Shown here one piece after another: positions 13,329-41,144 of a stretch of 63,623 nucleotides of DNA. The DNA comes from Fictibacillus terranigra (lineage in GTDB: Bacteria; Bacillota; Bacilli; Bacillales; Fictibacillaceae). Below the pieces are notes generated by a model, which saw only the letters and a program-made list of their open reading frames with translations, was not told the DNA's origin and did no database searches. The DNA lies in assembly GCF_030412265.1 (NCBI RefSeq), contig NZ_JAUHLN010000010.1, positions 1-63,623 of the forward strand. Reading direction: 5' to 3'. Position 1 is the stretch's first letter. Each line of letters opens with the position of its first letter. Made by a program: the position numbers and the translations under genes.

Positions 13329-13349
13329 TCTTTTCCCCCTTTGGCACTG

Positions 13350-15290: not shown

Positions 15291-17194
15291 GGAAGTTCCT
15301 CCCCGCTTAGCGCAATCCCATAAATGCCAGCCGTGTTCTCTTTAAAAACGGATTCCAGATGAAGTTCAAAGATGTGAACTTGTTTTTTTCTCTGCCTTAA
15401 TCGATGTATTGCGGAATGGAAGGTTTCATCCAACGGCTTCTCTTCAAAAGAAGGAACCGGAACCTTCTTTTGAGCATCCTTTTGCGATGTAATGGAGGAA
15501 ACCACAACCCCATAGGGATAATGTAAGGTTTCTTGATTTTGAAAATCCATCACAGCCGTTTGTAATGCTCTGCTTAAAGCCATCTTCATATTTAATCCAA
15601 CGCTTCCATACCATTTGCCGTTTGATTCAACCCAAACGACAGGGAATCCCAGCACATCATGGCCCCAAAAAAGTTCTGGTTCAGACTTCCTGGTTCTCAA
15701 AGCCTGCAGAAAAAATCGGCAGCGATGATCATTTACAAGACTTACATCTAATGTGGCTTTAGTAGCACCGTGATCTGCTTGCTTCACAAATTCTTCATGA
15801 AGTGTGTTTTGCAATGCTCTGCATAACCCTTCCGCAGGGGTTTTGCCTGTTCCTATACCACTTGGTGAAGAATGCTCACTGAAACACTCATTCCCAAAAC
15901 TTCTGACATACGTTTCAATTCCAAAAAGACCTGCCTCCAGGCGAGCTTCTTCATGCGTGAGTCCTGAACAGACGGTCTCAGGATAGAGCTTGGCAGGGCC
16001 TTCTGAACGCGGATCAGCAACTTGGACTTTGCATTGGGATAACGGCAGCTGGAGTAAATCTGCTTCCTCCCAAAGATGAAAAACACCACATTCTTTTGAA
16101 GTAATCCGGTAAAACAATGAATGTAAATCCATTTGTTGATGATTGCATGTTTCAAGGAATTTAACAGGGTCCTTAATGGGCTCTGCATAAACACGCCCAG
16201 TAACCAGTGGGTGGGGGATAAAGGTATGCCAGCTTCCTTCGAGCGTTTCCAGGTTAAGCAAGTAAAATGGTCTTTCTTTTTTATCCTCATGTACCCCCGT
16301 GATTTCTTTAAAAAGCTCAAAAACCGCCACATTGGCTAATAGCGCACCCGCTGTTTGTGAGAAGGTTCGGGAACCATTGCTTTTTTCATTCGGCCGCTGG
16401 TGCAATCGGCGAAAGGCAGACTCCCAGCACGAATCGGATTCAGGAGAAACGAGCGGGCCCGTAAAGGCTAAATCTTTTAAAAAAGTAACGGGAAGAGCTT
16501 TCTTCTTTTGTTCCTTGCAGATGGTTAGAATGGTACGAAGTTGAGCTAAATCACTGTCCTTGAATCCATATATTATGGAATCAAACGGCTCTAGAGTTTC
16601 TCTCCATGAATGTTTCTCGGGACGTAAGATCGTGATTTCCGTTTCAGGCTCTGATTTGCGTGCTTCAACGATCATGTCATTTAACCGGTGCTGAGCATCC
16701 TGGCGGGAATCAGTTAGCAGGATGCTGAAAGAAGGAAGCCCTGACTGAATCAATGCTCGAACGAGAGAGAGGAGAAGTGAATCAGAACCGATCACCGCAA
16801 CTCTTGCCTGTCGGTAAACTTGAAATCGGTATGCGCCAGAATCTCGAAAAGAATTTAAATATTCAATTTGGGAGGTGTATTTCATAAGAATGCGATCAGG
16901 AAGCTGATGGGGGACATCCTGGCTTACATCACGGACAAAACCGTTTTCGTACAGAACTTGTGCGATCTTATACACTTGTTCTTTATAAGCATCTGGTAAA
17001 CCGTTTGTTACAGATTCAAGAGTATGGGTTCCGTCGAAAATAGGAATTAATTTTTCCAGCCATCGGTCAATGGTGCTGCCTTCCATTCTTAAAGATTTTT
17101 CGTTATTCCGGAGATATACACCTTCGGCTGAAACCGGAAAAACAAACGTGTCTCTGTTCACTTTTAAACACATAGAAGGATTTAATATTTGCAT
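15287..17194 (-). CDS. Thiazole-containing bacteriocin maturation protein (ThiF-like partner)
   Basis: This 635-aa protein is counted from the ATG at 17194, which has GAGGAGGG five bases before it; an upstream in-frame start at 17224 lacks this. The N-terminal winged-helix/peptide-clamp region (about 1-110; TIDRWLEKLIPIFDGTHTLE) and the Rossmann-like stretch (RVAVIGSDSLLLSLVRALI) resemble the E1-like partner proteins of heterocycloanthracin clusters. A C-terminal half resembles YcaO-type folds (TPAEGLCRALQNTLHEE). It probably binds the precursor leader and presents it to the YcaO enzyme. I rely on remembered family architecture for the name. Confidence 0.82.
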   Translation of the reverse strand: MQILNPSMCLKVNRDTFVFPVSAEGVYLRNNEKSLRMEGSTIDRWLEKLIPIFDGTHTLESVTNGLPDAYKEQVYKIAQVLYENGFVRDVSQDVPHQLPDRILMKYTSQIEYLNSFRDSGAYRFQVYRQARVAVIGSDSLLLSLVRALIQSGLPSFSILLTDSRQDAQHRLNDMIVEARKSEPETEITILRPEKHSWRETLEPFDSIIYGFKDSDLAQLRTILTICKEQKKKALPVTFLKDLAFTGPLVSPESDSCWESAFRRLHQRPNEKSNGSRTFSQTAGALLANVAVFELFKEITGVHEDKKERPFYLLNLETLEGSWHTFIPHPLVTGRVYAEPIKDPVKFLETCNHQQMDLHSLFYRITSKECGVFHLWEEADLLQLPLSQCKVQVADPRSEGPAKLYPETVCSGLTHEEARLEAGLFGIETYVRSFGNECFSEHSSPSGIGTGKTPAEGLCRALQNTLHEEFVKQADHGATKATLDVSLVNDHRCRFFLQALRTRKSEPELFWGHDVLGFPVVWVESNGKWYGSVGLNMKMALSRALQTAVMDFQNQETLHYPYGVVVSSITSQKDAQKKVPVPSFEEKPLDETFHSAIHRLRQRKKQVHIFELHLESVFKENTAGIYGIALSGEELP

Positions 17195-17273
17195 GATCGC
17201 CCTCCTCTTCAGAAAGCTCCACATTTTTTACATTATTTAACTCTATGGATGCCTTGTGTCCTTTATGTCTAAA

Positions 17274-17305
17274 CAAAAAAAGCCCCACAGAGGGATATGC
17301 AGGGC
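17274..17305 (-). terminator. Hairpin between TOMM precursor and modification genes
   Basis: On the minus strand GCCCTGCA...TGTGGGGC forms an imperfect stem followed by TTTTTTTG. It lies between the precursor gene and the maturation gene. Partial read-through here would yield much more precursor than enzyme, as in many RiPP operons. Confidence 0.65.
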
Positions 17306-17341
17306 AAACCATTTTGAATTCCTGTTAATGTGAGTCGGAGC

Positions 17342-17686
17342 TCAACGACCGTCGCGATGACCTCCGCAACGACCTCCGCAACCACCGCAGCCGCCACAAC
17401 GGGCACAGCCGCCACAACCACCGCAACGGCCAAAGCATCCGCCACAGCCGCCACAGCCACCGCATACACCAAAGCCACCGCATACACCAAAGCCACCGCA
17501 TACACCAAAACCACCGCATACACCAAAGCCACCACATACACCAACACAGAAACCAATGCCAAGGCCAACACATAGACGAGCGGGATCACTCATCTCTTGG
17601 TCCTGGGGATAATTCGGGGTAACATTGCTGACCTTTACACCATCAGTGTGCAGCCCCTGAAGATCCCACTTGAATTCTTCATTCAA
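17342..17686 (-). CDS. Heterocycloanthracin/sonorensin-type TOMM precursor peptide
   Basis: This 114-aa precursor starts at TTG 17686, with AGGAGG 8 nt upstream. Residues 1 to about 38 form a hydrophilic leader (NEEFKWDLQGLHTDGVKV...). The rest is a Cys/Gly core with 17 Cys, made of four GGFGVC repeats (18-nt tandem DNA repeat, about 17459-17548) followed by CGGCGG-type repeats. This is the layout of heterocycloanthracin and sonorensin, whose Cys residues become thiazoles. The modification genes follow on the same strand. No dedicated exporter or immunity gene is visible nearby. The CGG-rich DNA also produces long open frames in other phases, which are shadows. Confidence 0.92.
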   Translation of the reverse strand: MNEEFKWDLQGLHTDGVKVSNVTPNYPQDQEMSDPARLCVGLGIGFCVGVCGGFGVCGGFGVCGGFGVCGGFGVCGGCGGCGGCFGRCGGCGGCARCGGCGGCGGRCGGHRDGR

Positions 17687-21177: not shown

Positions 21178-21510
21178 TTAGGAAACAGGTTCTGCGAGTA
21201 CAAGTTTGGAATATTTAGAGTCAGGGCCCGAACCCGAAGCCGCTACCAGTTCGTTCAATTCCTCTCTTGCAGCTTCTACCGTATCAAACGTTTCAAAGAA
21301 CTTTACCCTGATCTGATTGACGTACTCTCTTCCTTCATAATGTTCAGAGAGTTGAATTTTTACATTGTCGTTTGTAACTTTGGCAATCGTGTAAGTTGCT
21401 TTTACTTTATCAAAAAAGTAGAAATCATAGGTTTCGACCGGCTCCAGTCCTTCCCCTTTTACAGTGGTTTGATACGTGTCTTTGTTTGTTAACACAATAT
21501 ACTTGCCCAT
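21178..21510 (-). CDS. Conserved-looking 110-aa protein of the GntR regulon, function unknown
   Basis: I do not recognise this small, acidic, soluble protein. It has no signal or membrane segment. It is rich in beta-type residues in the first two thirds (YIVLTNKDTYQTTVKGEG, KIQLSEHYEGREYVNQIRV) and has a helical segment near the end (TFDTVEAAREELNELV). It is transcribed divergently from the ferredoxin/creatininase operon. A TTGTATACCA site matching the other GntR-type operators lies 44 bp upstream of its start, so it probably belongs to the diiron-oxidase pathway, for instance as a small regulatory or accessory subunit. AGGTGATTC lies before the ATG. Confidence 0.8.
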   Translation of the reverse strand: MGKYIVLTNKDTYQTTVKGEGLEPVETYDFYFFDKVKATYTIAKVTNDNVKIQLSEHYEGREYVNQIRVKFFETFDTVEAAREELNELVAASGSGPDSKYSKLVLAEPVS

Positions 21511-21553
21511 AGAATCACCTCAGCTTAAAGTATTTTTCACTATCTTTTGTATT

Positions 21554-21563
21554 TTGTATACCA
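21554..21563 (-). promoter_or_regulatory. GntR-type operator before the 110-aa gene
   Basis: TTGTATACCA, one of seven sites with the GTATAC core in 21.5-31.1 kb. Confidence 0.65.
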
Positions 21564-21665
21564 TATAGGTATCTTACCTCTGAAAATAATCCGAATCAAT
21601 AGTTTTTAGAATATTTAAATAGATTGATTTTCGTGTTTTTTCTATTTTTTTGCTCATATTTAGCA

Positions 21666-21694
21666 TTTACAAGTAAAAAATCCTTCGTTATAAT
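21666..21694 (+). promoter_or_regulatory. sigma-A promoter of the ferredoxin-creatininase-permease operon
   Basis: TTTACA (21666-21671), 17-nt spacer, TATAAT (21689-21694). No GTATAC site lies within it; the nearest is 103 bp upstream. Confidence 0.7.
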
Positions 21695-21758
21695 CAAAAC
21701 TATATTTACAAGTTTCAGAAAATTATAACATTTTAACACTTAAGAGAGAGGTGATTGT

Positions 21759-22091
21759 ATGCCATTTGTTCGTTTACTTCAGGATGGCCAATTGTATGAA
21801 CAAGAAGTAAAGGAAAATAGTAACCTAGTAGTCTTGGCTGGTATTAAAGAATTTCCAAAACTGCGTTATGGTTGTGGAATGGGGAAGTGTACCAAATGCG
21901 TATCTAAAGTGGTTAAAGGCGCTGAAACCCTTGATCCGCCGAATTGGAAGGAGGAAAAAATGCTAGGGAAACTCCTAGAAGAGGGATTTCGTTTAACGTG
22001 CCAGCTTACAGTTAAAGGAGATTTGGAATTAGTACAAGAAAAAAATTTTAACACAAAAGGTATACAATATTCCACAGCAGCCAATCGTTAA
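21759..22091 (+). CDS. 2Fe-2S ferredoxin
   Basis: This 110-aa plant/adrenodoxin-like ferredoxin has the cluster motif C-x4-C-x2-C in YGCGMGKCTKCV and the fourth Cys in RLTCQL. It carries single electrons to an oxygenase or reductase. It is the first gene of an operon with a creatininase-family enzyme and a permease, and upstream of a diiron oxidase gene that would need reducing power. A second, distinct ferredoxin lies at 30258. GAGAGAGGTG precedes the ATG. Confidence 0.9.
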   Translation: MPFVRLLQDGQLYEQEVKENSNLVVLAGIKEFPKLRYGCGMGKCTKCVSKVVKGAETLDPPNWKEEKMLGKLLEEGFRLTCQLTVKGDLELVQEKNFNTKGIQYSTAANR

Positions 22092-22128
22092 TGGTTACTA
22101 ACCCCCAATGTATAGGAGGAGATGTCGT

Positions 22129-22890
22129 TTGAGTGTATATGTTTTAGCAGATATGACGTATCCAGAAGTGCAGCACGCTCTATCCACCATTGATCTGGCG
22201 ATTATACCTATTGGAGCTCATGAACAACATGGCCCGCATCTTACCGAGAACTGTGATGCGGTTATAGCTGAAAAAATGGCCATTCGCTTGGGAGAAAGAC
22301 TATATCCCCATGCCGTTGTTGCTCCTACTATCAATATGGGCGTTTCATCCCATCATTTGAACTTTCCAGGAACTATCGCTCTTCAACCGTCCACTTTAAT
22401 TTCACTTATCCATGACATCGTTTATTCTTTAAAGCAGCACGGTATCACTCAGTTTTTATTGTTAAATGCCCACGGAGGCAACCAGTCTACCTTAAGTGTT
22501 GCCAGTACGGAATTGTCGCAAAAACTAGGTGTAAAGATCTATTTCGCAAAAACGACTGGATCTGCAAAACATTCGATTCAACGCCATATTCACTCTCCAC
22601 TATTTGGTCACAGCTGTGAACGGGAGGTATCTGAAGCCCTTTATCTGGCACCTTCTATTGTAAGATTGGACAAGCTCCAAAAAGGGGCGATCAAAGAAGG
22701 GACTTGGAAATATCTTCGCCCTAACAGTCCTGTACAGGGTCCTTATCAATATGAGGAAATGACAGCGAATGGATGTATCGGCGATGCCACTCAAAGCAGA
22801 GAAGATATTGGAAGAGAAATAGTAGAGGAAGCGCTAGAAAATTTAGAACTAACATTAAAAGATATTATCGGCACGACCATTAAGGCTTAG
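22129..22890 (+). CDS. Creatininase-family amidohydrolase
   Basis: This 253-aa protein is counted from TTG 22129; AGGAGGA lies 8 nt upstream, whereas the earlier in-frame ATG overlaps that site. Metal-ligand motifs of the family are visible: IPIGAHEQHGPHL, ENCDAV, NAHGGNQ, and the Glu in CEREVSEAL. Family members hydrolyse cyclic amides or formamides (creatinine, Fapy compounds, mycofactocin leader). In this cluster it probably opens a ring or cleaves an amide or N-formyl product; the substrate is unknown. Confidence 0.9.
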   Translation: MSVYVLADMTYPEVQHALSTIDLAIIPIGAHEQHGPHLTENCDAVIAEKMAIRLGERLYPHAVVAPTINMGVSSHHLNFPGTIALQPSTLISLIHDIVYSLKQHGITQFLLLNAHGGNQSTLSVASTELSQKLGVKIYFAKTTGSAKHSIQRHIHSPLFGHSCEREVSEALYLAPSIVRLDKLQKGAIKEGTWKYLRPNSPVQGPYQYEEMTANGCIGDATQSREDIGREIVEEALENLELTLKDIIGTTIKA

Positions 22891-22929
22891 TAGAATCACC
22901 TACTTTCAACCAATAGAGGGGTGCTAGGT

Positions 22930-24399
22930 ATGACTTTGACACTTGCACATGGTATGTATGCAATTGTTACAGTGTCCGTTATTGTTATCATGCTTTTTCG
23001 AAAGGGCATTGTTTTACCGACGCTATTAGGAACTTTACTTGTTGCCAGTATTTACACAGGATCGCTCGTTGGCGGTCTGAAGGCAGTGTTTAATGCAAAC
23101 TTGGTTGCCGCAAAAGAGTTATTCAGTATCTTTTTGATCATTACGTTTATGGTTGCTCTGCTCAAATCTCTTAAAGACTTAGGAGCCGATCAAAAAATGA
23201 TTGCTCCTGTTCAAAAGATCATGGTTAATGGTCATATTGCTTTTCTTTGCCTCGCGCTAATCACTTATGTTGTATCTTTGTTTTTTTGGCCGACCCCAGC
23301 GGTACCTTTAATTTGTGCACTGCTGGTTCCTGCTGCGGTAAGAGCAGGCCTTCCCCCTATGGCTGCAGCGATGGCGGTTGCTATGGCAGGCCAGGGTATG
23401 GCGTTGTCATCCGATTATATTATGCAGGTAGCTCCCATGCTTAGCGCGAAAGCTGCCGGCATTCCAACTGCTGCTGTCGCTTCCAAGGTTCTATTTCTTT
23501 CCCTTATTACAGGTTTGACAGCCCTAGGAATTACGTATGTTAGAGAAAGGAAAAATATCAAACAGCCTAATTACGCTCCTAATCTATCTTTAATTGACAG
23601 CATGTCTAATGACCAGATGAAAATGGAAGAGGAAATTAAATCTGAAGTTTCAGCCGCGTCTGAAATGTTTGTGTCAGAAAAAGAGCGGAACAGATGGGGA
23701 AGTATCTTTGCTGTGGTTGTTCCACTTTCCATGCTAGCAGTTATGATTTATATGTTCTCCGTGAAATTTTCCGGGAGTAAGATGACCGGCCTTGAAGGCG
23801 GGGACGGAGCCGCTTTTATAGGGGGTGTCGCCATTGTTCTTCTTGTTCTGGCCAGTGTTTCCTTTGGAAGATTACACGCATTTGAGAAGATTAGTGATCA
23901 TATTACGGATGGTTTTGTGTTCGCTTTTCGGGCTATGGGGCCTGTTATCCCAATTGCAGGATTCTTTTTTCTGGGCAGTGGTGATTTTGCTTCCGCTATA
24001 CTTTCTCTCCCAGTCGATGCTTCTAAACCTGCTTTTTTGTTTGATATTGTTCAATCGGCCCAGAACCTTATTCCCCAAAGCGGATTTATCACAGGGTTTG
24101 GTATTTTAGTTATTGGAATCATAACGGGTTTAGATGGTGCTGGTTTTGCCGGTTTGCCTTTGACTGGTGCGTTGTCGGGAGCCCTTCACCATGGGACAGG
24201 TGTTGATCCCTCCACGCTTGCTGCGATCGGTCAAATGGGTGCTGTTTGGACGGGCGGGGGAACGTTGATTGCCTGGTCTTCCTTAGTGGCTGTTGCAGGT
24301 TTTTGTGGGGTCTCAGTCATTGAGCTAGCGAGAAAGAATTTCTTTCCGGTCATCATTGGATTATGTGTTGCTACGTTAGCCGCTTTACTTATTTGGTAA
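22930..24399 (+). CDS. Permease of the ion-transporter/GntP-like type
   Basis: About 489 aa, counted from ATG 22930 (GAGGGG 8 nt upstream). It has about 12 hydrophobic segments, with a hydrophilic loop at about 215-255 (MSNDQMKMEEEIKSE). Motifs include FFWPTPAVPLICALLVP, GMALSSDYIMQVAP, LTGALSGALHHGTGVDPSTL and GGGTLIAWSSL. This looks like a secondary carrier for a carboxylate or a small organic ion. It follows the creatininase gene by about 40 bp and probably imports the substrate of the pathway. Confidence 0.8.
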   Translation: MTLTLAHGMYAIVTVSVIVIMLFRKGIVLPTLLGTLLVASIYTGSLVGGLKAVFNANLVAAKELFSIFLIITFMVALLKSLKDLGADQKMIAPVQKIMVNGHIAFLCLALITYVVSLFFWPTPAVPLICALLVPAAVRAGLPPMAAAMAVAMAGQGMALSSDYIMQVAPMLSAKAAGIPTAAVASKVLFLSLITGLTALGITYVRERKNIKQPNYAPNLSLIDSMSNDQMKMEEEIKSEVSAASEMFVSEKERNRWGSIFAVVVPLSMLAVMIYMFSVKFSGSKMTGLEGGDGAAFIGGVAIVLLVLASVSFGRLHAFEKISDHITDGFVFAFRAMGPVIPIAGFFFLGSGDFASAILSLPVDASKPAFLFDIVQSAQNLIPQSGFITGFGILVIGIITGLDGAGFAGLPLTGALSGALHHGTGVDPSTLAAIGQMGAVWTGGGTLIAWSSLVAVAGFCGVSVIELARKNFFPVIIGLCVATLAALLIW

Positions 24400-24427
24400 A
24401 CAATAGTTAGAAAATTCAATAAAGTTA

Positions 24428-24476
24428 TTGACAGCGGTCAGTAGGCAGGGTTAGTATAAACTCAAATGGTATACCA
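24428..24476 (+). promoter_or_regulatory. Promoter and GntR operator of the diiron-oxidase operon
   Basis: TTGACA (24428-24433), 18-nt spacer and TAGTAT (24452-24457) form a promoter. Just downstream of the expected transcription start lies the perfect 10-bp palindrome TGGTATACCA (24467-24476). A second half site follows at about 24483. The layout is that of a repressor roadblock. Confidence 0.75.
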
Positions 24477-24519
24477 AATACAATATACCGAGTGAACTAT
24501 TTTAAAGGAGGAGTTAAAA

Positions 24520-25239
24520 ATGGCTGAATTATTAACAAAAGATGAGTTTCGTAAACAGTTGGAGGAAGCAATCAAGGGCAATCATAGTCAAAAGGCGCCT
24601 TTTACAGAAGCATGGGCCACTGGAAAACTATCACGGGAGCATTTTGCCAGATGGGCAGAGAACCACTATCACTATGTCGGACCATTTGCTGATTATCTAG
24701 CTTATATTTACGCTCATACTCCGGAGAAGTACACAGAAGCGAAGGATTTTACCCTTCAAAACATGTATGAAGAGGAACTTGCAGCAGACAGGCATACCGA
24801 TCTTCTGATCCGTTTTGCGGAAACGTGCGGAACAACCCGGGAAAGAGTGGAGAATCCAGAAAACATGGCTCCTACCACATTAGGATTGCAAAGCTGGTGT
24901 TACTCCATTGCTATGAGAGAAAATTTCGTCGTTGCAACTGCTGCCCTGGTCGTTGGACTAGAATCCCAGGTCCCGGATATCTATCGAAAGCAAACACCAA
25001 TACTAAGAGAGAAATATGGATTTGACGACGAACAAATTGAATTTTTTGATTTACATATTGTGTCTGATGAGATTCATGGGGAACGGGGCTACAAAATCGT
25101 TCTGGAGTGTGCGGACACGGTAGAATTGCAGCAAAAATGTCTGGATGTCGTTAGAACAGGAGCCAAAATGCGCAGGATGTACATGGACGGCCTCTATAAC
25201 ACATATGTAGCTAAGGACCTTGAAACCGTCCAATCCTAA
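24520..25239 (+). CDS. Heme-oxygenase-like diiron oxidase (HDO; TenA/PqqC-like fold)
   Basis: This 239-aa all-helical protein would be labelled PqqC-like or TenA-like by fold. It carries the full set of iron ligands known from heme-oxygenase-like diiron oxidases: Glu85-x6-His92 (EELAADRH), Glu148 (GLESQ), and His179-x3-Asp183-x2-His186 (HIVSDEIH). PqqC and TenA lack this set, so an O2-activating iron enzyme is the better call. Known members cleave C-C bonds, desaturate, or oxidise amines and amino acids. It is first in an operon with an aldehyde dehydrogenase, which could oxidise an aldehyde product; two ferredoxins in the cluster could reduce the iron. The RBS is AAAGGAGG. Confidence 0.88.
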   Translation: MAELLTKDEFRKQLEEAIKGNHSQKAPFTEAWATGKLSREHFARWAENHYHYVGPFADYLAYIYAHTPEKYTEAKDFTLQNMYEEELAADRHTDLLIRFAETCGTTRERVENPENMAPTTLGLQSWCYSIAMRENFVVATAALVVGLESQVPDIYRKQTPILREKYGFDDEQIEFFDLHIVSDEIHGERGYKIVLECADTVELQQKCLDVVRTGAKMRRMYMDGLYNTYVAKDLETVQS

Positions 25240-25333
25240 GCCGATGTTTTTCATGTAAACAAGCAAATATCAGGCAGTTTCTCCAATAGAGAGGAACTGC
25301 CCTCATTTTTAATTGAAGCAAGGAGGTAACACC

Positions 25334-26794
25334 GTGCCAACAACTACAGCAGTAAAATCCTTTGGAAACTATATTAATGGTGAGTGGCTGACCGAAGAAC
25401 GTGTATTTCCAAGCATTAATCCGGCAGCTAAAAAAGAAGTTGTCGGTTATTTTCAAGCATCAAGTGAGAATACGGCAAAAAAGGCGTTAGATGCAGCAAG
25501 CGAGGCTTTCCGCTCCTGGTCTAGTACTGCACCTACCAAGCGCGCGGCCATGTTAACAAAAGCAGCTGATATTCTGGACAGCCGCTCCGAGCAAATTGCT
25601 GAAGAACTGACAAAAGAAGTAGGAAAACCATTTGGAGCGAGTTTAAATGAAGTAAAACGCTCTGCGGAAACCCTGCGATATTATGCAGTGGAGGGTGTCA
25701 GCTATACGGGAGAAACATTTCCAAACGATGACCCCAATCTAAGAGTTTATACCGTAAAGGAACCATTAGGAGTAATCACCGTCATTACGCCTTGGAACTT
25801 TCCTTTATCCATCCCTGCCAGAAAGATTGCCCCTGCATTGATAACCGGTAATGCGGTTGTGTTTAAGCCATCTTCCGACTCTCCATTGGTCGGTTACAGA
25901 TTGGTGGAAGCACTGCATGAGGCCGGTCTTCCTAAAGGCGTGCTGAATTATGTCACCGGCTCTTCAAGAGAAATTGGGGAGATTTTGGTCAAACATCCCG
26001 CGGTCAGGGGAGTCACATTCACCGGATCCACGAATGCAGGAGAACAAATCCACCGTTCAGTATCACTAACAACGAGAACACAGATGGAGCTTGGGGGCAA
26101 GAACCCGCTGATCGTAATGGAGGATGCCGATTTGGATGAAGCCGTCCAATTGACAGTGAATGGAGGGTTTGGTTTAAGCGGGCAGGCGTGTACAGGTACG
26201 AGCAGAGCCATTGTTATGAAAAGTATAAAAGAAGAATTTACGAACCGGCTTGTTCAGAAGGCAAAAGAGCTCAAGATTGCCGATGGGTTCACAAAAGGGG
26301 TATCTATGGGGCCGCTGGCCAATGAAAAGCAATTAAAGAATGTTCTCGACTATATACACATTGGGAAAAATGAGGGCGCGATGCTGCTTTGTGGCGGAGA
26401 ACAGCTAACGGGTACAGGGTATGATGAAGGATTCTATGTAAGCCCGGCAGTTTTTACCGATGTAACTCCCGGGATGAGGATCGAACAGGAAGAAATTTTT
26501 GGCCCTGTGATCTGTGTAATTGAAGCCGATGATTACGAAGAAGCCATTTCGATTGCAAATAATGTGGAATACGGTCTCTCCGCTTCCATTGTGACCAAAC
26601 AGCTAAACTATATCGAACGCTTTGTAAAGGAAGCCGAAGCCGGGACCGTAAAATCCAACCGAACCACTACGGGCAATCTCATGAATGCACCGTTTGGCGG
26701 TATTAAAAAATCAAGCACGTCGACATTCCGTGAATCTGGAAGAGTGGGCCTGGAATTTTTTACACAAACCAAAACCGTTTATTTTGGACATTAG
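25334..26794 (+). CDS. Aldehyde dehydrogenase (NAD(P)+)
   Basis: Counted from GTG 25334 with AGGAGG 7 nt upstream, this is a 486-aa ALDH. It shows TPWNFPLSIPARKIAPAL, the nucleotide-binding FTGSTNAG, catalytic Glu in MELGGKNP, catalytic Cys in SGQACTGTSR and EEIFGPV. The C-terminal GGIKKSSTSTFRESG is like 2-oxoglutarate-semialdehyde and related semialdehyde dehydrogenases. It likely oxidises an aldehyde or semialdehyde made by the preceding diiron oxidase. About 95 bp separate the two genes. Confidence 0.92.
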   Translation: MPTTTAVKSFGNYINGEWLTEERVFPSINPAAKKEVVGYFQASSENTAKKALDAASEAFRSWSSTAPTKRAAMLTKAADILDSRSEQIAEELTKEVGKPFGASLNEVKRSAETLRYYAVEGVSYTGETFPNDDPNLRVYTVKEPLGVITVITPWNFPLSIPARKIAPALITGNAVVFKPSSDSPLVGYRLVEALHEAGLPKGVLNYVTGSSREIGEILVKHPAVRGVTFTGSTNAGEQIHRSVSLTTRTQMELGGKNPLIVMEDADLDEAVQLTVNGGFGLSGQACTGTSRAIVMKSIKEEFTNRLVQKAKELKIADGFTKGVSMGPLANEKQLKNVLDYIHIGKNEGAMLLCGGEQLTGTGYDEGFYVSPAVFTDVTPGMRIEQEEIFGPVICVIEADDYEEAISIANNVEYGLSASIVTKQLNYIERFVKEAEAGTVKSNRTTTGNLMNAPFGGIKKSSTSTFRESGRVGLEFFTQTKTVYFGH

Positions 26795-26814
26795 AATGGG
26801 ACAGGGGGAACATC

Positions 26815-27294
26815 ATGAAAAAGACTATGAAACTTGAATTGAAGGAAGCAAGAATAATGATGGAAGCGGCTAAAAAAAAGGCAGAAGAAATCAATGTGCT
26901 TGAAACGATAGTCGTTGTCGATGATGGCGGATACCCCATTCTCCTGGAAAGGATGGATGGCGCGAGGATTACCGGTCCAGAAATTGCTATTGCCAAAGGA
27001 TACACGGCTGCCGGCCACAAACGGTCCACACATCTGTTTAATAAAGAACCGAACGGGCCTGCTTTACCAGGAAATGAAGCGTTTGGTATACAGCATATGC
27101 TCGACGGAAAGTTTGCTATTTTTGTAGGGGGATTCCCTGTCGTGGTCAATGGTGAGGTCATTGGAGGAATAGGCATTAGCGGAGGCAACGGTGAACAGGA
27201 TACAACGGTTGGTGTTGCTGCTCTTCAAGCATTGAAGGAACATCTCTCCAATGACGGATATGACGTAGTGGCAACCGCTGATATAAAACGATAA
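26815..27294 (+). CDS. GlcG/HbpS-family heme-binding-like protein
   Basis: This 159-aa protein resembles the GlcG/HbpS (DUF336) family: LKEARIMMEAAKKKAEEI, VVDDGGYPILLERMDGA, IAIAKGYTAA, and the glycine-rich FVGGFPVVVNGEVIGGIGISGG. Members bind heme, cobalamin-type or other cofactors and often sit beside catabolic genes, usually with unclear function. It is 20 bp after the aldehyde dehydrogenase gene and followed by an intercistronic hairpin. Confidence 0.88.
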   Translation: MKKTMKLELKEARIMMEAAKKKAEEINVLETIVVVDDGGYPILLERMDGARITGPEIAIAKGYTAAGHKRSTHLFNKEPNGPALPGNEAFGIQHMLDGKFAIFVGGFPVVVNGEVIGGIGISGGNGEQDTTVGVAALQALKEHLSNDGYDVVATADIKR

Positions 27295-27298
27295 TTGA

Positions 27299-27329
27299 AA
27301 GGGCTGCCAAGTTAATGGAGGCAGCCCTT
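27299..27329 (+). terminator. Intercistronic hairpin
   Basis: Perfect 10-bp stem AAGGGCTGCC/GGCAGCCCTT without a T-run. It may set mRNA stability or partial termination between the enzyme genes and the chrA-like genes. Confidence 0.5.
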
Positions 27330-27364
27330 CGTTGATTACTGTTATTTCTCGGAGGGGGATTTAA

Positions 27365-27961
27365 ATGAGAACGTATCTCGATTTAGTTGTTGGTTTTGCT
27401 AGGACAGGAGTTACAGGTTATGGAGGCGGGCCTTCGATTATTCCATTAATTGAATATGAAGCCGTAAAGAAATACAAATGGATGAATGAAGATGAGTTTG
27501 GTGAAACGTTGGCCCTGGCGAATACCCTTCCAGGTCCGATCGCCACGAAAATGGCAGCATATATCGGTTTCAAAGTGAAGGGTTCAGCGGGAGCGGCTGT
27601 AGCCATCTTGGCCCATATTCTCCCTTCGAGCCTTGCCATGATGGTCCTTCTTGGATTTTTATATTCGTTTCGGCATTCCCCGGTCGTAAAAGGAATGGTA
27701 ACCGGAGTGAGCCCGGTCATTGGTGTAATGCTTGCCGTTTTAGCATTTCAATTTTTAACGAAGAGCAAAAAAACGATGGGAAGCAAGTGGATGGCCGTGT
27801 TTGCAATTGTGTCTTTCCTGCTGCTTCAAGGGATCTCCCTGCATCCTGGTATTGTCATTGGCCTGTTTTTAGTAGGTGCATTTATTCTATCAACCTATAA
27901 GATTAAGAAAGATCAAGGATGGAAGGCTCCTGTGATGCAAGAAAGGGAACGACAACTATGA
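27365..27961 (+). CDS. Chromate transporter (ChrA) half, first of two
   Basis: This 198-aa short-chain CHR-family membrane protein has the duplicated-domain signature GYGGGPSIIPLIEYE near residue 20 and ANTLPGPIATKMAAYIGF, then three or four further hydrophobic segments. Short ChrA proteins work as pairs of opposite topology. The next gene overlaps by 4 bp (ATGA) and is its partner. In this operon the pair may export an anion product instead of chromate; that is an inference from context only. Confidence 0.88.
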   Translation: MRTYLDLVVGFARTGVTGYGGGPSIIPLIEYEAVKKYKWMNEDEFGETLALANTLPGPIATKMAAYIGFKVKGSAGAAVAILAHILPSSLAMMVLLGFLYSFRHSPVVKGMVTGVSPVIGVMLAVLAFQFLTKSKKTMGSKWMAVFAIVSFLLLQGISLHPGIVIGLFLVGAFILSTYKIKKDQGWKAPVMQERERQL

Positions 27962-28494
27962 TCTATTTACATATTTTTTGGGCATTCTTTGTCGCTAACT
28001 TGCTTGGCTATGGAGGGGGGCCCTCCACAATTCCGTTGATCCAAAATGAAGTGGTACAGCATTATGGCTGGATGACTAATAAGGAATTTGGTGATTTGCT
28101 GGCTATGGCCAATGTTTTGCCCGGCCCGATTGCAACAAAAATGGGAGGTTACATTGGATATGAGGTAGGGGGAGTGTTTGGGTCTATACTGGCATTGTTC
28201 GCAACCATAGGTCCTTCTGCAATTGCGGTCATACTTTTGTTTGCGTTTCAAAGCCGCTTTAAAGACGCCTTGCAGATCAAATGGATGACACGGTCCGTTC
28301 AACCGGTGATTGCTATACTCCTAGCCGTATTGGCATACCAATTTTTATTGTCTGCCTTTGAGTCAATGGGCTGGCTGCACTTGATCTTGCTCGCTGCAGG
28401 TAGCTACGTGGCCATGGAAAAGATAAAAATTCACCCAGCTGTCGTTATTGTCGCTTCCCTATTTTATGGCGGGATTTTTCTCTCCCACATATGA
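27958..28494 (+). CDS. Chromate transporter (ChrA) half, second of two
   Basis: This 178-aa partner starts at the overlapping ATG 27958. It repeats the family motif (GYGGGPSTIPLIQNE, ANVLPGPIATKMGGYIGY). It is clearly homologous to the preceding gene, about the same length, and the two are translationally coupled, so they should form a heterodimer. Confidence 0.88.
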   Translation: MIYLHIFWAFFVANLLGYGGGPSTIPLIQNEVVQHYGWMTNKEFGDLLAMANVLPGPIATKMGGYIGYEVGGVFGSILALFATIGPSAIAVILLFAFQSRFKDALQIKWMTRSVQPVIAILLAVLAYQFLLSAFESMGWLHLILLAAGSYVAMEKIKIHPAVVIVASLFYGGIFLSHI

Positions 28495-28537
28495 AAACAT
28501 TGGAAATATTGTTTCTTTAGATAAAACAAGATATAAT

Positions 28538-28547
28538 TGGTATACAA
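28538..28547 (+). promoter_or_regulatory. GntR-type operator before the regulator gene
   Basis: TGGTATACAA, 27 bp upstream of the regulator ATG, suggesting autoregulation. Confidence 0.65.
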
Positions 28548-28574
28548 TTTTTTAGACAGTAGGTGAGTAGCAAA

Positions 28575-29246
28575 ATGCAAAGCAAGTGGGTGGAGGAAGA
28601 CTTACTCTCAATACGTGAACGGGCTTACCGTTATTTAAAGGATATGATTTTAAATGGCGAGTACAAAGCGGGCGACCGGCTGGTTGAACGGGAATTGGCT
28701 GACAAGCTTCACATCAGCAGAACGCCTATACGTGAGGCGCTCTTCCGCTTGGAGTCACAAGGATTTGTGAAAACGGTTCCTCGTAAAGGAGTCGTGGTCG
28801 AACGGATCAGTGAAGACGAGGTAGTGGAAGTATTTACGATTTTATCATCTTTGGAAGTGCTGGCTGCAAAGCTTGCTGCTCAAAAAATGGATGACAAAAC
28901 ACAGTTGGAGTTCGATCAGGTCATCGTAAAGTTGCAAAATTTGGATGGGTTAACAGAAGCGGAAGTGTCGAAGCTTCATTTGGATACAAATCAGATCCTG
29001 CATAAAGCGGCAAAGAGCCCCAAGCTATACGAATTGTTGACTGGCCTGACAGATTACATTCGAATTTTCTCCAATACGAGTTATGAGACGCCAGGGAGAA
29101 AAGAAGAATCCATGAAAGAACATTTAGAAATCATGAAGGCGGTAAGGAATAAAGATGTGGAAATGGGAGAGTACTTAACAAAAATCCATATCGAAAATTC
29201 AAAGAGAGCCTACATTAATTATGTGAAACAAAATAAAAAAGGGTAG
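28575..29246 (+). CDS. GntR-family (FCD-type) transcriptional regulator
   Basis: About 223 aa, from ATG 28575, which has AGGTGA 8 nt upstream; a GTG 12 bp earlier is less well placed. The N-terminal winged helix includes LNGEYKAGDRLVERELADKL and ISRTPIREALFRLESQG. The C-terminal all-helical FCD domain (about 85-215) has the metal-binding His/Asp type positions (LDTNQILHKAA, EHLEIMKAV, HIENSKRAY). FCD regulators usually respond to carboxylic acids. The palindromic GTATAC sites around it are a likely match for this protein, since no other regulator lies in the cluster. Confidence 0.9.
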   Translation: MQSKWVEEDLLSIRERAYRYLKDMILNGEYKAGDRLVERELADKLHISRTPIREALFRLESQGFVKTVPRKGVVVERISEDEVVEVFTILSSLEVLAAKLAAQKMDDKTQLEFDQVIVKLQNLDGLTEAEVSKLHLDTNQILHKAAKSPKLYELLTGLTDYIRIFSNTSYETPGRKEESMKEHLEIMKAVRNKDVEMGEYLTKIHIENSKRAYINYVKQNKKG

Positions 29247-29280
29247 AAAACGAAGATTATTTCGTTTCCTGCCCTTTTTT
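29241..29280. terminator. Bidirectional terminator between gntR and aspartate dehydrogenase
   Basis: A 14-bp stem GGGTAGAAAACGAA/TTCGTTTCCTGCCC (two G-U type pairs) with T-run on the plus side and A-run (T on the minus strand) on the other. The genes converge on it. Confidence 0.8.
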
Positions 29281-30085
29281 AAATGCCGATCACCACTGGC
29301 GAAAACAAATGGGTCAAAGCTTTGATGACACTCATGGAGACAATATAGCTTGATTTTGGGTTTTCAGGAAAAGGTGTATTCTGGACCTCAAGTTTGATGC
29401 TGCCGAAATCCCCAATAGCCCTGACTTCATGTGTATTTTTGTCGATAGTAGGATCCACGTATACCTTCACTTTTGTTTCTTTAAATCCAAGGCCAGCGAG
29501 ACTAAGTGCAGCGGATACATTCACACTTTGAGGAAAAAGCATGGCCGACTCATTGGCGTTTCCTTCAAACACACAGACCGGCTCCTCTAGGGATGTAAGG
29601 TCGACTTTCTGTTCAACGAAGGTCCCTTTCCAAGCCCGCGGGGGTTTTCTTGTGACTAGTGTTACACTTTCCAACTTTCCCATTGAAGCCGCTGTTATCC
29701 GGTCAAGGCCGCCAATGGCTGCAGATGGAATGATTAATTTGGTTCCATTCGTCTTTGCGGTTTCTTTTAAAGTATGTAAAAGGGTTTCATCCCTCAAAGC
29801 ACCCACCGAAACGATGATCAGATGGGCACCAGATGCCAAAGCTTTTGCTCCTAATGACTCCAGGGCATTATGGCCGGCTGCTTCGATAATGACATCCAAC
29901 CCGCTTGCAAAAAATTCATCTGCGTTATTCGTAAGTATACACCCTGAGTTAGGAACATTCCGTATCTTTTCAGGGGATCGAACGAGGATTCCTTTCAAGG
30001 TGGCCTCGCCTTTAAAATAATCTTGAAAATAGGAAGCAATATCCTGACCGATTGCTCCGTAGCCAATGAGACCAACATTTATCAA
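29279..30085 (-). CDS. nadX: L-aspartate dehydrogenase-like enzyme
   Basis: This 268-aa NAD(P)-dependent enzyme has a Rossmann motif at the N-terminus (VGLIGYGAIGQDIASYF) and aspartate-dehydrogenase motifs: IPSAAIGGLDRITAAS, RKPPRAWKG, LFPQSVNVSAALSLAG, VYVDPTIDKNTHEV, and the C-terminal NPKSSYIVSMSVIKAL. The family deaminates L-aspartate to oxaloacetate or iminoaspartate. A GntR-type operator lies just upstream, and no NAD synthesis genes are near. A catabolic role in the diiron-oxidase pathway, acting on an aspartate-like intermediate, is more likely than NAD synthesis. Confidence 0.88.
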   Translation of the reverse strand: MINVGLIGYGAIGQDIASYFQDYFKGEATLKGILVRSPEKIRNVPNSGCILTNNADEFFASGLDVIIEAAGHNALESLGAKALASGAHLIIVSVGALRDETLLHTLKETAKTNGTKLIIPSAAIGGLDRITAASMGKLESVTLVTRKPPRAWKGTFVEQKVDLTSLEEPVCVFEGNANESAMLFPQSVNVSAALSLAGLGFKETKVKVYVDPTIDKNTHEVRAIGDFGSIKLEVQNTPFPENPKSSYIVSMSVIKALTHLFSPVVIGI

Positions 30086-30116
30086 CTTTTACACCCACCT
30101 TCACAGAATCAGTACT

Positions 30117-30126
30117 TGGTATACTA
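30117..30126 (-). promoter_or_regulatory. GntR-type operator before aspartate dehydrogenase
   Basis: TGGTATACTA, 32 bp upstream of the minus-strand start. Confidence 0.6.
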
Positions 30127-30215
30127 AAAGTATAACCGATGGGAGGACAGGGTCAATATAAATCGCAAAAATAGTGCAAATATTATAAAAACTCATTGTT
30201 TTATAGGGTAGTTAA

Positions 30216-30232
30216 TGGTATATTGTATACCA
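30216..30232 (+). promoter_or_regulatory. GntR-type operator before the second ferredoxin
   Basis: TGGTATATTGTATACCA: a full TTGTATACCA site with an extra TGGTATA half, about 26 bp before the ferredoxin ATG. Confidence 0.65.
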
Positions 30233-30257
30233 TAAGAAAATGAGGAGGTTTAAAATC

Positions 30258-30593
30258 ATGCCGAAACTTCATTTTATTACCAGTGATAAAGAGTTTGAAG
30301 TACCTGATCATTCAAGTGTGTTGAGAATGTCCTTGCGCTATGATGGGGATCTTCCAAACCGCTGTGGCGGGGGAACATGTGGGACATGCGTATGTAAAAT
30401 TGAAAGAGGTTTAGAAAATGTGGATCAAGTGAAACCTGCAGAGAAAAAAAAACTAGGTGAAGAGCTTTTGGAACAAGGGTATCGGCTGGGCTGCCAGACA
30501 TTTATAAATGGTGATGTTTCATTGTCATGGGACCCTAAAATCACCAAAATGGTGCAGAAGAGAAAGATCGTCAAAATGATTGCTACTAAGTAA
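30258..30593 (+). CDS. 2Fe-2S ferredoxin, second copy
   Basis: This 111-aa protein starts at ATG 30258 behind AGGAGG. It has the cluster motif C-x4-C-x2-C in RCGGGTCGTCVCK and the last Cys in YRLGCQTF. It differs clearly from the ferredoxin at 21759 (basic C-terminus VQKRKIVKMIATK), so it is not a recent duplicate. Its own GntR-type operator shows it belongs to the same regulon and could supply electrons to the diiron oxidase. Confidence 0.9.
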   Translation: MPKLHFITSDKEFEVPDHSSVLRMSLRYDGDLPNRCGGGTCGTCVCKIERGLENVDQVKPAEKKKLGEELLEQGYRLGCQTFINGDVSLSWDPKITKMVQKRKIVKMIATK

Positions 30594-30594
30594 T

Positions 30595-30789
30595 ATGAAT
30601 GAAAGGGATGAAAAAGCCGTGCTCGTATGTAAAAAACATATCGTGGATGGTGTCGGTAAGCTGGATGCTCCTCACGTGAAAAAGATTTTACCATTGCAAC
30701 CATGCTTTTTTTGCGGAAAACAAGCACATTATAAACTTTTTTATTCTCACTCGTTTACTTATCGGAGCAAAGAAAAATCCGCCATTTGA
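30595..30789 (+). CDS. Small CxxH/CxxC-type protein (YyzF-like)
   Basis: This roughly 64-aa protein has the paired motif CKKH near the N-terminus and CFFC about 30 residues later, the layout of the CxxH/CxxC family (YyzF) of Bacillaceae, which probably binds one zinc. The function of the family is not known. It starts 1 bp after the ferredoxin stop and is therefore probably co-transcribed. The start is uncertain: ATG 30595 has no clear ribosome site, and TTG 30580 is an alternative. The stop lies inside the terminator stem. Confidence 0.65.
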   Translation: MNERDEKAVLVCKKHIVDGVGKLDAPHVKKILPLQPCFFCGKQAHYKLFYSHSFTYRSKEKSAI

Positions 30790-30802
30790 CGGCGGATTTT
30801 TT
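30773..30802 (+). terminator. Terminator of the second ferredoxin unit
   Basis: AAAAATCCGCC/GGCGGATTTTTT, perfect stem with a 7-nt loop and T-run. Confidence 0.85.
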
Positions 30803-31490
30803 CTATTTTATGAGTTTAAATAAATTCTGAAATTTGCGATCGGCTAGTTGTTGGACTATTGTAGAGTAAAATAAATAATGGAACATATAGAATCCCCCCA
30901 CCAAAAGATTAATTTCATTATAATCCATTTTTAATTGATTATCAATATCATTCAGTCAAATGGTATACCGTTTGTTAATTTTTTTATAATTTCGGGTAGT
31001 ATTTTTTATTTATTTTACTAATTGTATACCAAATTGCTATTGAACCTCGTTAGGAATCAACTGAAAGGGTAAGCATTCTCAACAATAAATATAAAAAATC
31101 ATAAAGAGGAGTTTTTTCTTTGTGTGAACCGTTAGTAAGCTCTACTTCGAAAGAGATGATGAATTAACGTAATAATATTATTGTCAACTTTAGAAGCATA
31201 AGTTAAAGTAAAGAAAGGAATCACATTAATAAAACTTAGTGAATAATTCAACGCTAGTATTTGGTGCCCCTATTGCGTATAGGGTAAAACAAACAAGATT
31301 TGTTATATTACATATAGAGATATATACCTACCCAAAATATTGGAGATAATAGAATGATGAATACCGTTTTTTTAAAATCAGGTAAAGGAGCGACCAGCTT
31401 ACGGCTGTGATCAAGATATGGCATTAACTTCTCCCTTTTGATTCAGAAGTACTCCCCAGGAGAGGAAGGAATTGAATCAAGGGTATAGAA
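30803..31490. other. Non-coding stretch with two orphan GntR-type operators
   Basis: TGGTATACCG (30961-30970) and TTGTATACCA (31022-31031) match the regulon operators but no intact gene follows on either side. Either a gene of the regulon was lost here or the sites act at a distance. The rest is AT-rich with broken short frames. Confidence 0.55.
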
Positions 31491-37106: not shown

Positions 37107-38600
37107 TTATAACAATGGAGAAAGCAGGCGAGCTCCCTGCTGAATTATCCGTTGTGAAAGAGAGCGCTGTTGTAAATCCTCCATGGTCAACTGCAACGAA
37201 TCACTAAGATCAAGCTCGAATTGCTCTGTGAGATCCCGTGCTACATCGATACTGTAAACGACTTCACACACCTCGTAATTAAGCCGAAAGCTTCTCATAT
37301 CGTAATTTGCAGCGCCAACTTCAGCAATCTCCTCATCGACAATCATGACCTTCGCGTGTAACAACCCTTTGTCGTACAGGTAGATTTGAACCCCGGATTC
37401 CAACAGCTCTCCGTAAAAGGTGGGGCTTGCAAGACCCACGATTTTTTGATCTACGTGGCGAGGAACCAGTAGTCTTACTCGGACACCACGGGCCACAGCT
37501 GTCTTTATAGCAAGGATAATATCTTCATCGGGCACAAAGTAAGGTGTGGTGATATCAATGGTTTTGGTAGCTTGTGTCACCAGAATAAAGTAGGCCTCCC
37601 GGACGACCGGCGTTGGAATGCCAGGATTGCCTTCTAACGTTTGAATGTATGCTTTCTGCAATGGTTCCATCCTTGAGAAATTGTCTATACCCTTTAACGT
37701 GCCCATTTCAGTACGCCATTGTGCCGACCCTACGGAAACACCTGTCTTGCCCGGTATCTGCAATTTTGGAATGTTTTGATGCTTTTTTTGATCTTGTTGT
37801 GTCTTCGACTTGATCCTTTCCGGCGCTGCGATGTTCCAGTGGGTGTCGAAAATAGTCTGCAAATCGAAAGGCGCTTCACCTGTGATTCGCAAATGAGTGT
37901 CACGCCAGAATCCCACTCCTGGCTTTAAACCTGTATACTCATACCCTACGTTGATCCCACCTGTAAATGCTTCCTTTCCGTCGATTAGTACAATCTTACA
38001 ATGATCCCGATAATTCCAGTTGGAGAACATCCAAGGGAAACGCAATGGAAATATGGTCCGGCATTCAATCCCTGCATTCATCATCTCAGTGATCTTATGC
38101 TGTGGAAATTGACGGCTTCCAAAACCGTCTCTCACAAAGCGGATCTTCACGCCAGCTGCAGCCCGTTCTAGCAGCAGGTCCGTGAGCTGTCTGCCAATCT
38201 GATCATCCCGGTAGATGTAATATTCCAGATCAATCTTTTTTTGGGCGCTCTTCAGCGATTCAAGAAGCTTTCCATAGGTTTTAATACCGTTTATAAGTAT
38301 TTGGACTTTGCCGGCCCGAAGTCCATGCACGCTCAATTTCCCTAAAGCATGTGCGATGACCGAGGCAGAGGGGCTAAATGAATCAGGCAACTGGTGTGAT
38401 TCATGATGCGGAGAAGTCAATCTTTTTCGACGAATACGAACAGGGTTCGTTGTACTGAGATAAAGTCCAAAACCGATGATAGGCAAAATGAGGCAGAAAG
38501 CTAACCAATTCAAGGCCTTGGCTGGCCGGCGAACTTCACGAATCGCTATGATTAACATAAAGATCGTATTTATTATGTATAGCCAAAGAATCCACATCAA
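37107..38600 (-). CDS. cls: Cardiolipin synthase
   Basis: About 497 aa. It has two N-terminal membrane helices (WILWLYIINTIFMLIIAI, LNWLAFCLILPIIGFGLYLS). Two phospholipase D motifs follow: H-x-K-x4-D in DHCKIVLIDGKEAFTGGINVG and LLHAKVMIVDEEIAEVGAAN. It condenses two phosphatidylglycerol molecules to cardiolipin. The start (TTG 38600, also TTG 38603 or ATG 38597) follows AGGAGG. Cardiolipin synthase genes are often found next to spoVA-2mob loci. A decayed paralogue lies at 53269-54772. Confidence 0.93.
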   Translation of the reverse strand: MMWILWLYIINTIFMLIIAIREVRRPAKALNWLAFCLILPIIGFGLYLSTTNPVRIRRKRLTSPHHESHQLPDSFSPSASVIAHALGKLSVHGLRAGKVQILINGIKTYGKLLESLKSAQKKIDLEYYIYRDDQIGRQLTDLLLERAAAGVKIRFVRDGFGSRQFPQHKITEMMNAGIECRTIFPLRFPWMFSNWNYRDHCKIVLIDGKEAFTGGINVGYEYTGLKPGVGFWRDTHLRITGEAPFDLQTIFDTHWNIAAPERIKSKTQQDQKKHQNIPKLQIPGKTGVSVGSAQWRTEMGTLKGIDNFSRMEPLQKAYIQTLEGNPGIPTPVVREAYFILVTQATKTIDITTPYFVPDEDIILAIKTAVARGVRVRLLVPRHVDQKIVGLASPTFYGELLESGVQIYLYDKGLLHAKVMIVDEEIAEVGAANYDMRSFRLNYEVCEVVYSIDVARDLTEQFELDLSDSLQLTMEDLQQRSLSQRIIQQGARLLSPLL

Positions 38601-41106: not shown

Positions 41107-41144
41107 TCTACACTTCAATTATCCAATGTGAAGGAGTGTGGAAG

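Follow-up and report, generated by a model that had tools for sequence, protein, structure and literature searches.

A conserved gene cluster of Fictibacillus terranigra and other bacteria that links a heme-oxygenase-like dimetal oxygenase to two ferredoxins: a candidate catabolic pathway

Contig NZ_JAUHLN010000010.1 of Fictibacillus terranigra (assembly GCF_030412265.1), of which positions 1-63,623 make up the whole stretch of DNA analysed (the window), carries a compact group of genes around a heme-oxygenase-like dimetal oxygenase (HDO), a putative catalytic core. Its neighbours are two [2Fe-2S] ferredoxins (Fdx1 and Fdx2), an orphan protein of 110 amino acids (aa), an aldehyde dehydrogenase (ALDH), a GlcG/HbpS (DUF336) protein, a creatininase-family amidohydrolase, an L-aspartate dehydrogenase family protein (AspDH), permeases, a ChrA-family transporter pair and a GntR/FCD regulator (Table 1). 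Do these genes form a unit, and if so, what chemistry might they carry out? Computed evidence covers the linkage and co-occurrence of the genes, the predicted fold, and the conservation of ligand positions and of operators, and the reading that we favour, at a probability of roughly 0.6, is a substrate-induced catabolic pathway with a multicomponent, ferredoxin-fed HDO oxygenase at its first or key step.

Linkage, distribution and shared operators

A pattern scan of a species-genome collection gave 495 confirmed HDO relatives, and the best 80 of these 495 were fetched with their flanks, a choice that favours close relatives; a gene was scored as present in a locus if its match covered at least 60% of the query within the fetched flanks. 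HDO and GlcG are present in all 80 loci, ALDH in 79, and the orphan, Fdx2 and GntR in 78 each, followed by the first permease (76), creatininase (75), Fdx1 (74), the two ChrA halves (67 and 69), the second permease (66) and AspDH (56). HDO, Fdx1, Fdx2, GlcG and the orphan occur together in 71/80 loci, 70 of them with ALDH as well. Six loci show no Fdx1 in their flanks, and the one of these that was extended (L070) has an Fdx1 (57%) just outside, adjoining the permease. The most faithful parts are HDO, GlcG, ALDH, the orphan and the two ferredoxins; this core of the set listed by a first-pass annotation of the window stood, while AspDH, creatininase and ChrA proved replaceable. The same annotation had proposed a functional unit of HDO, both ferredoxins and GntR, and the neighbourhoods agree with this in many genera and two phyla; the contrary case, HDO homologues that share no other member of the set, did not hold. 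That the cluster is one regulated unit is strongly supported.

Co-occurrence was followed in 150 genomes (84 genera) spread over the host order. At E 1e-40, HDO was found in 13 of these, spanning 10 genera, and in 9 of the 34 genomes of the host family. A profile search with the orphan (E 0.001) found the same 13 genomes and no further one. Fdx1 (62–100%) and GlcG (75–100%) are also in those 13; the 22 genomes reached with Fdx1 at E 1e-6 add other ferredoxins (42% or less), and the 31 reached with GlcG at E 1e-10 add other DUF336 proteins (44% or less). The agreement on the 13 genomes is inflated by relatedness, but these span 10 of the 84 genera. At the same HDO threshold there were 7 hits among 300 genomes of the order of L073 (two being seeds), 1 among 369 of the class of Billgrantia (the seed) and 5 among 385 of the class of SAR116. 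The distribution is patchy, with clusters in Bacillaceae, Fictibacillaceae, Thermoactinomycetaceae, Sporolactobacillaceae, Alicyclobacillaceae, Halomonadaceae, Saccharospirillaceae, Burkholderiales and Alphaproteobacteria including SAR116. In a tree of 38 fetched HDOs and that of the window, in which many internal branchings are unresolved and the outgroup branches long, the 15 Pseudomonadota rows form one group (support 100/100). The HDO of L013, a record titled Chryseobacterium sp. ISL-80, pairs with Cytobacillus in this tree and has a Cytobacillus-like gene order, so the record is probably mislabelled.

The five-gene core in a SAR116 genome (L072) brings to mind the operon for homarine (N-methylpicolinate) catabolism of environmental bacteria, reported in 2026, of which the present cluster might be an example or a land relative. 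That operon, homABCDER, reportedly comes from SAR116, is said to be common in Rhodobacterales and reportedly yields N-methylglutamate, whose formation from homarine would call for an oxidation, the oxidation of an aldehyde, a deformylation and imine steps. Judged by this description it could overlap the present set; in that case the form found in Bacilli, which has AspDH and creatininase, would count as a variant all the same. However, among the 385 alphaproteobacterial genomes an HDO of more than 50% identity was found in the SAR116 seed alone, the next reaching 47%, and we hold the identification to be improbable. Mgd is reported to take part in homarine catabolism; the study of 2026 is cited as Nat Microbiol 11:1531 (PMC13236597).

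The operators proposed in the first-pass annotation to tie the genes together were found again by counting. With up to one mismatch, TGGTATACNA gives 29 strand-matches in the window against 11.0 expected, a number reached in 0 of 100 shuffles, and the strict form WTGGTATACMAW occurs at 7 places in the 4.97-Mb genome, of which 5 are in the cluster and 2 inside open reading frames (ORFs). In two other genomes, exact matches fall in the contig region of the cluster in 4 of 4 (G1096) and 4 of 5 (G1109) cases among the matches listed. Eight-base half-sites were then counted from at most 250 bases upstream to 20 bases inside each gene in the Bacilli set (68 loci, L002-L069). They precede HDO in 68/68 loci, the orphan in 67/67, AspDH in 47/49, Fdx2 in 63/66, creatininase in 64/68, the second permease in 58/65, Fdx1 in 55/67 and the first permease in 36/67, against 2/68 for ALDH, 0/68 for GlcG and 0/61 for ChrA, which served as inner controls. 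For GntR the count is 12/67; here a single gene had to be chosen in the many loci with two GntR genes. About 6% of 200-base windows drawn at random from the same loci (39 and 45 of 680) contain a single half-site. In 20 loci outside the Bacilli set (19 have a G+C content of at least 55%), a site stands before HDO in 17, and 18 of their 64 sites lie there against 0.83 expected by length. The GntR/FCD protein is assumed to be the reader of these TTGGTATACAA-like operators, and would act by repression. In this window there is no operator-like site directly upstream of the second permease. Two sites lie downstream of Fdx2 (30961-31031), where no ORF of at least 80 aa follows them closely in the window and the four loci looked at share no gene after Fdx2; they may be what is left of a regulon gene since lost.

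The candidate oxygenase, its partners and the proposed chemistry

HDO is predicted to have a heme-oxygenase-like helical fold, and its nearest solved relatives in sequence and fold are the CADD-type 4-aminobenzoate synthases 1rcw, 8va9 and 9pj4. Residues E85, H92, E148, H179, D183 and H186 are invariant in 23/23 alignment rows and kept in 6/6 rows of a set including more distant HDOs. By alignment to CADD, these three histidines and three carboxylates are the probable metal ligands, which agrees with the complete iron-ligand set seen in the first-pass annotation. The ligand pattern is shared with CADD, but its sacrificial residues, Tyr27 and Lys152, align to T29 and Q158, and unlike CADD this HDO sits in a catabolic-looking operon with two ferredoxins. 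CADD 4-aminobenzoate synthase was rejected as an identity on these replacements and on its score (TIGR04305, 101 bits, cut-off 200), and so were PqqC (44.7 bits, cut-off 240) and TenA (19.4 bits, cut-off 130).

Four cysteines of each ferredoxin (C39, C44, C47 and C81 of Fdx1, in 74 orthologues; C42, C47, C50 and C85 of Fdx2, in 78) are at least 97% conserved. Outside the Bacilli set, one reductase family is found in 12 of the 15 loci L070-L084; the member that was scanned has Fer2, FAD and NAD domains and is nearest to BenC (217 of 430 bits) and MmoC (193 of 500), below the cut-off in both cases. The annotated order in Caballeronia is GntR, alpha/beta hydrolase, ferredoxin, hypothetical protein, ferredoxin, HDO, ALDH, heme-binding protein, 2Fe-2S protein (the reductase), ornithine-cyclodeaminase-family (OCD) protein and MFS. 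The orphan has no Pfam match at E 0.001. In Pseudomonadota it is on the same strand as Fdx1 and within 350 bases of it in 9 of the 12 loci showing both, and likewise for Fdx2 in 9 of 17, while in the Bacilli set (here with L079 counted in) it is divergent from Fdx1, never on the same strand, and within 350 bases in 45/67. Because of the gene order in Pseudomonadota, the orphan is read as part of an electron-transfer or oxygenase complex, in which it may be an obligate accessory or coupling component. The ferredoxins are likely to feed HDO, because few genes accompany it as faithfully as they and the orphan do, because a dioxygenase-type reductase joins them where it is linked, and because a 44–47% identical HDO relative (L101, 8929-10563) adjoins, divergently, a 277-aa Rieske-domain protein. 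The L101 pair is itself another possible 2Fe-2S-fed HDO.

GlcG has among its relatives in the PDB 2a2l (of unknown function), 5cx7, EfgA and NahX. In the accessible text of one study (PMC8153426), 5cx7 is the C-terminal domain of PduO, EfgA is a formaldehyde sensor that binds formaldehyde, and some DUF336 proteins belong to microcompartments whose pathways yield toxic aldehydes. Residues K57, S114 and D121 of EfgA align to K61, S122 and D129 of GlcG, which are at least 97% conserved in 80 orthologues, and an aldehyde-related role of GlcG is plausible from this alignment. While EfgA is described there as lacking a conserved gene context (PMC8153426, in the part available), GlcG forms its own DUF336 subfamily, tied to this HDO and near it in 80/80 loci.

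Of the remaining enzymes, ALDH best matches the alpha-ketoglutaric semialdehyde dehydrogenase model of NCBIfam (574 bits, below the cut-off of 770), and its C286 and E252 are conserved across orthologues. AspDH scores above the cut-off of NF009828 (244 against 177 bits) and has 2dc1, an L-aspartate dehydrogenase, as best PDB match, and by this curated family score it is a predicted L-aspartate dehydrogenase. In five loci where AspDH was not seen (L073, L074 and L082-L084) there is an OCD protein; both families act on amino acids or their imines. The creatininase-family protein reaches the Pfam superfamily level (PF02633) and is under the cut-off of all four NCBIfam models matched; identities as creatininase, MftE and FAPy deformylase were rejected (103 of 235, 99 of 172 and 29 of 180 bits). 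The hydrolase varies, with an alpha/beta hydrolase in Caballeronia, and five loci have a gamma-glutamyltransferase-like ORF, four of them beside creatininase.

From these components we infer electron flow, the roles of the orphan and GlcG, repression and the order of steps as follows. A permease would import a nitrogen-containing organic acid, which HDO would oxygenate with electrons passed from NAD(P)H through a reductase and the two [2Fe-2S] ferredoxins to its diiron site; outside the Bacilli set, most clusters encode a candidate for this reductase, the BenC/MmoC-like protein, and for Bacilli an unlinked host reductase is assumed. The orphan would be a required accessory or coupling part, and GlcG may bind or hand over a reactive aldehyde, which ALDH would oxidise. 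The amidohydrolase (creatininase type, or another hydrolase) would free the nitrogen end, AspDH or the OCD protein, as amino-acid or imine dehydrogenase, would lead the product into central metabolism, and GntR/FCD would control the set through the TTGGTATACAA-like operators. Its catabolic nature is suggested by the permeases, ALDH, AspDH/OCD and GntR/FCD.

Oxidative opening of an N-heteroaromatic acid is our working guess for the chemistry. With pyrrole-2-carboxylate, for example, HDO would form an N-formyl semialdehyde, ALDH a dicarboxylate, and deformylation iminosuccinate, the substrate of AspDH, so that a pyrrole-type ring opening would give each conserved enzyme a step; a six-membered ring would end at iminoglutarate instead. 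The hint of a heterocycle comes from L107, where an HDO relative (35–36% identity) lies among a UbiD decarboxylase, RutB/biuret-type hydrolases, an Asp/Glu racemase pair and an amidase. L108 has ORFs that resemble these by eye, and the subfamily of the two loci (gene at about 9.7 kb) keeps all six ligand positions; such neighbourhoods perhaps mark another undescribed heteroaromatic pathway. Taken at its most specific, the proposal is of a new multicomponent oxygenase architecture in at least two phyla. An HDO acting as diiron hydroxylase would draw electrons from two different ferredoxins, assisted by a coupling protein whose fold is not recognised and by a DUF336 protein that handles the aldehyde, and would open an N-heteroaromatic ring, a five-membered one in those cases where AspDH takes the product on. 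In this full form the proposal, which concerns an N-heteroaromatic acid as substrate, is held to be less likely than not.

The conserved enzymes can also be arranged around oxidative N-dealkylation, in which HDO would hydroxylate the carbon beside the nitrogen of an N-substituted amino acid to give an aldehyde and an amino acid, with no ring opening. ALDH (with GlcG) and AspDH/OCD would then be the two branches after C-N cleavage, GlcG has a formaldehyde-binding relative in EfgA, and among NCBIfam models the Rieske neighbour in L101 scores highest with GbcA (73.7 of 670 bits), level with HcaE; N-dealkylation is known from Rieske oxygenases, glycine betaine monooxygenase among them. This accounts for almost as much as ring opening, but leaves the creatininase-type hydrolase of 75/80 loci unexplained, except as a separate amide-cleaving entry step, and we regard it as rather unlikely. 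Still more doubtful is a role in biosynthesis or detoxification, where HDO would make or modify a small metabolite, or a reactive compound would be detoxified, with ChrA and TauE/SafE-like proteins as exporters. HDOs in the literature, as far as its accessible parts go, act in biosynthesis, ChrA-type transporters recur (67 and 69 of 80 loci), and what we take to be TauE/SafE-like ORFs are found in L071, L073 and L078; yet a set with two permeases, ALDH, AspDH and a GntR/FCD regulator is what one would expect of a catabolic pathway, and no peptide, ATP-grasp or carrier gene is among the shared families looked at. Presumed TauE/SafE-like ORFs lie near proteobacterial clusters (L071, L073, L078, L119 and L120) where Bacilli have the ChrA pair, perhaps for the export of an anion by-product.

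Several observations weigh against the ferredoxin-fed catabolic pathway as set out here. AspDH is missing from 24/80 loci and creatininase from 5, and those steps are therefore not universal. The SAR116 locus L072, in a nearly whole contig, lacks ALDH, permease, GntR, creatininase and AspDH; L104 and L106 lack ALDH within 20 kb; and, within the fetched stretch, L064 lacks Fdx1 and the orphan, and L079 the orphan. The reductase family of the other clusters is found in 0/68 loci of the Bacilli set, where other reductases were not searched for. When the strict operator is read backwards as a control, the genome has 15 strand-matches against 9 for the operator itself, so it is the placement of the operator that is unusual and not its number; in Bacilli genomes, the motif with one mismatch is no commoner than its backwards control. 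As for the hint of a heterocycle, the HDOs that give it are distant ones, next to which no ferredoxin is labelled. Lastly, the EfgA site residues are largely kept among DUF336 homologues, as stated in the accessible part of PMC8153426, and are therefore no proof of aldehyde binding.

Features of the window

The genes named in the first-pass annotation are all present, and the Pfam families agree with it (Haem_oxygenas_2, Fer2 twice, Creatininase, Aldedh, HbpS-like, GntR with FCD, and Asp_DH_C). Its list did not include the second permease, a conserved cluster member, or the reductase of clusters outside the Bacilli set. The Pfam scan of the ChrA pair covered the first half, and the second was matched by BLAST to ChrA of other loci.

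Table 1. Genes and operator sites of the HDO cluster, in positions of the window.
Feature	Positions	Strand	Remarks
Second permease, 458 aa	19731..21107	+	conserved neighbour, 66/80 loci; no Pfam match
Orphan protein, 110 aa	21178..21510	-	ORF; model of six strands, a helix and a last strand
Operator TTGTATACCA	21554..21563		between orphan gene and Fdx1
Fdx1, plant-type [2Fe-2S] ferredoxin	21759..22091	+	Pfam Fer2; 74/80 loci
Operator-like site, 1 mismatch	22058..22067		3' end of Fdx1, before creatininase gene
Creatininase-family amidohydrolase	22129..22890	+	PF02633, 205 bits; 75/80 loci
First permease, 489 aa	22930..24399	+	76/80 loci; neither family match nor credible solved structure
Operator TGGTATACCA	24467..24476		upstream of HDO
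HDO (putative catalytic core)	24520..25239	+	Pfam Haem_oxygenas_2
ALDH	25334..26794	+	Pfam Aldedh; 79/80 loci
GlcG/HbpS (DUF336) protein	26815..27294	+	Pfam HbpS-like; 80/80 loci
ChrA-family transporter, half 1	27365..27961	+	PF02417 (Chromate_transp); 67/80 loci
ChrA-family transporter, half 2	27961..28494	+	BLAST to ChrA of other loci; 69/80 loci
Operator TGGTATACAA	28538..28547		upstream of GntR
GntR/FCD regulator	28575..29246	+	PF00392 and PF07729; 78/80 loci
AspDH, L-aspartate dehydrogenase family	29279..30082	-	Asp_DH_C; NF009828; 56/80 loci
Operator	30117..30126		between AspDH and Fdx2
Operator	30223..30232		upstream of Fdx2
Fdx2, second [2Fe-2S] ferredoxin	30240..30593	+	Pfam Fer2; 78/80 loci
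Two operator-like sites	30961..31031		downstream of Fdx2

Elsewhere in the window there is a locus for a thiazole/oxazole-modified peptide (11763-17686, minus strand) with a SagB-family dehydrogenase, SagD/YcaO and a ThiF-like bacteriocin maturation protein; a short Cys/Gly-rich ORF just upstream of the SagB/YcaO genes (17342-17686), with no family match, is a possible precursor. Two adjoining ORFs (53426-54772, minus) match a single cardiolipin synthase model, one half each, and seem to be a disrupted copy; a longer ORF (37107-38633, minus) resembles these halves by eye. ORFs at 40636-43293 (plus) resemble transposition genes, also by eye; the sole match of 42493-43293 is an ATPase model (TIGR03015, 151 of 324 bits). 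A relative of the 3-hydroxy-D-aspartate aldolase BhcC (145 bits, below the cut-off of 690) is encoded at 1274-2362 (plus).

Comparison with known systems

Literature searches found no description of this gene set. The evidence for linkage is exceptionally clear. HDOs, a rapidly expanding class of enzymes, are viewed as biosynthetic tools, and in the literature as far as accessible one dedicated redox pair was reported for them in 2026. This is MboAB of the mangotoxin pathway, a biosynthetic HDO with a dedicated flavin/2Fe-2S reductase and a tripeptide substrate; according to the available part of the report, its authors consider that it may be the first characterised HDO-redox partner pair, other HDOs being run with chemical reductants or mediators (PMC13185094). 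The likeness would lie in an HDO with its own redox partner, for which the candidate here is a reductase family linked in 12/15 loci of L070-L084 and in 0/68 of the Bacilli set; the difference is that MboAB has one reductase, and separate ferredoxins, an orphan or GlcG are not mentioned in that part of the report (PMC13185094).

If the ferredoxin-fed catabolic pathway is correct, it would represent a catabolic, ferredoxin-dependent branch of a superfamily so far described mainly in biosynthesis, would give DUF336/GlcG proteins a concrete functional setting, and would indicate that a nitrogen-containing nutrient, common yet so far untraced, is consumed by bacteria in soils and in the sea. With so compact a unit, and with a likely regulator and operator in hand, induction screening could be used to look for the substrate. 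The proposed route resembles the trigonelline pathway TgnABCDE, where an N-formyl semialdehyde is likewise passed to a dehydrogenase and an amide hydrolase, but there the ring is opened by a two-component flavin monooxygenase and not by an HDO. In its arrangement of oxygenase, ferredoxin, BenC/MmoC-like reductase and possibly a small effector, the cluster would work like soluble methane monooxygenase (sMMO), the toluene monooxygenases and the Rieske oxygenases, and it would add a new oxygenase architecture beside the Rieske, P450 and sMMO-type systems.

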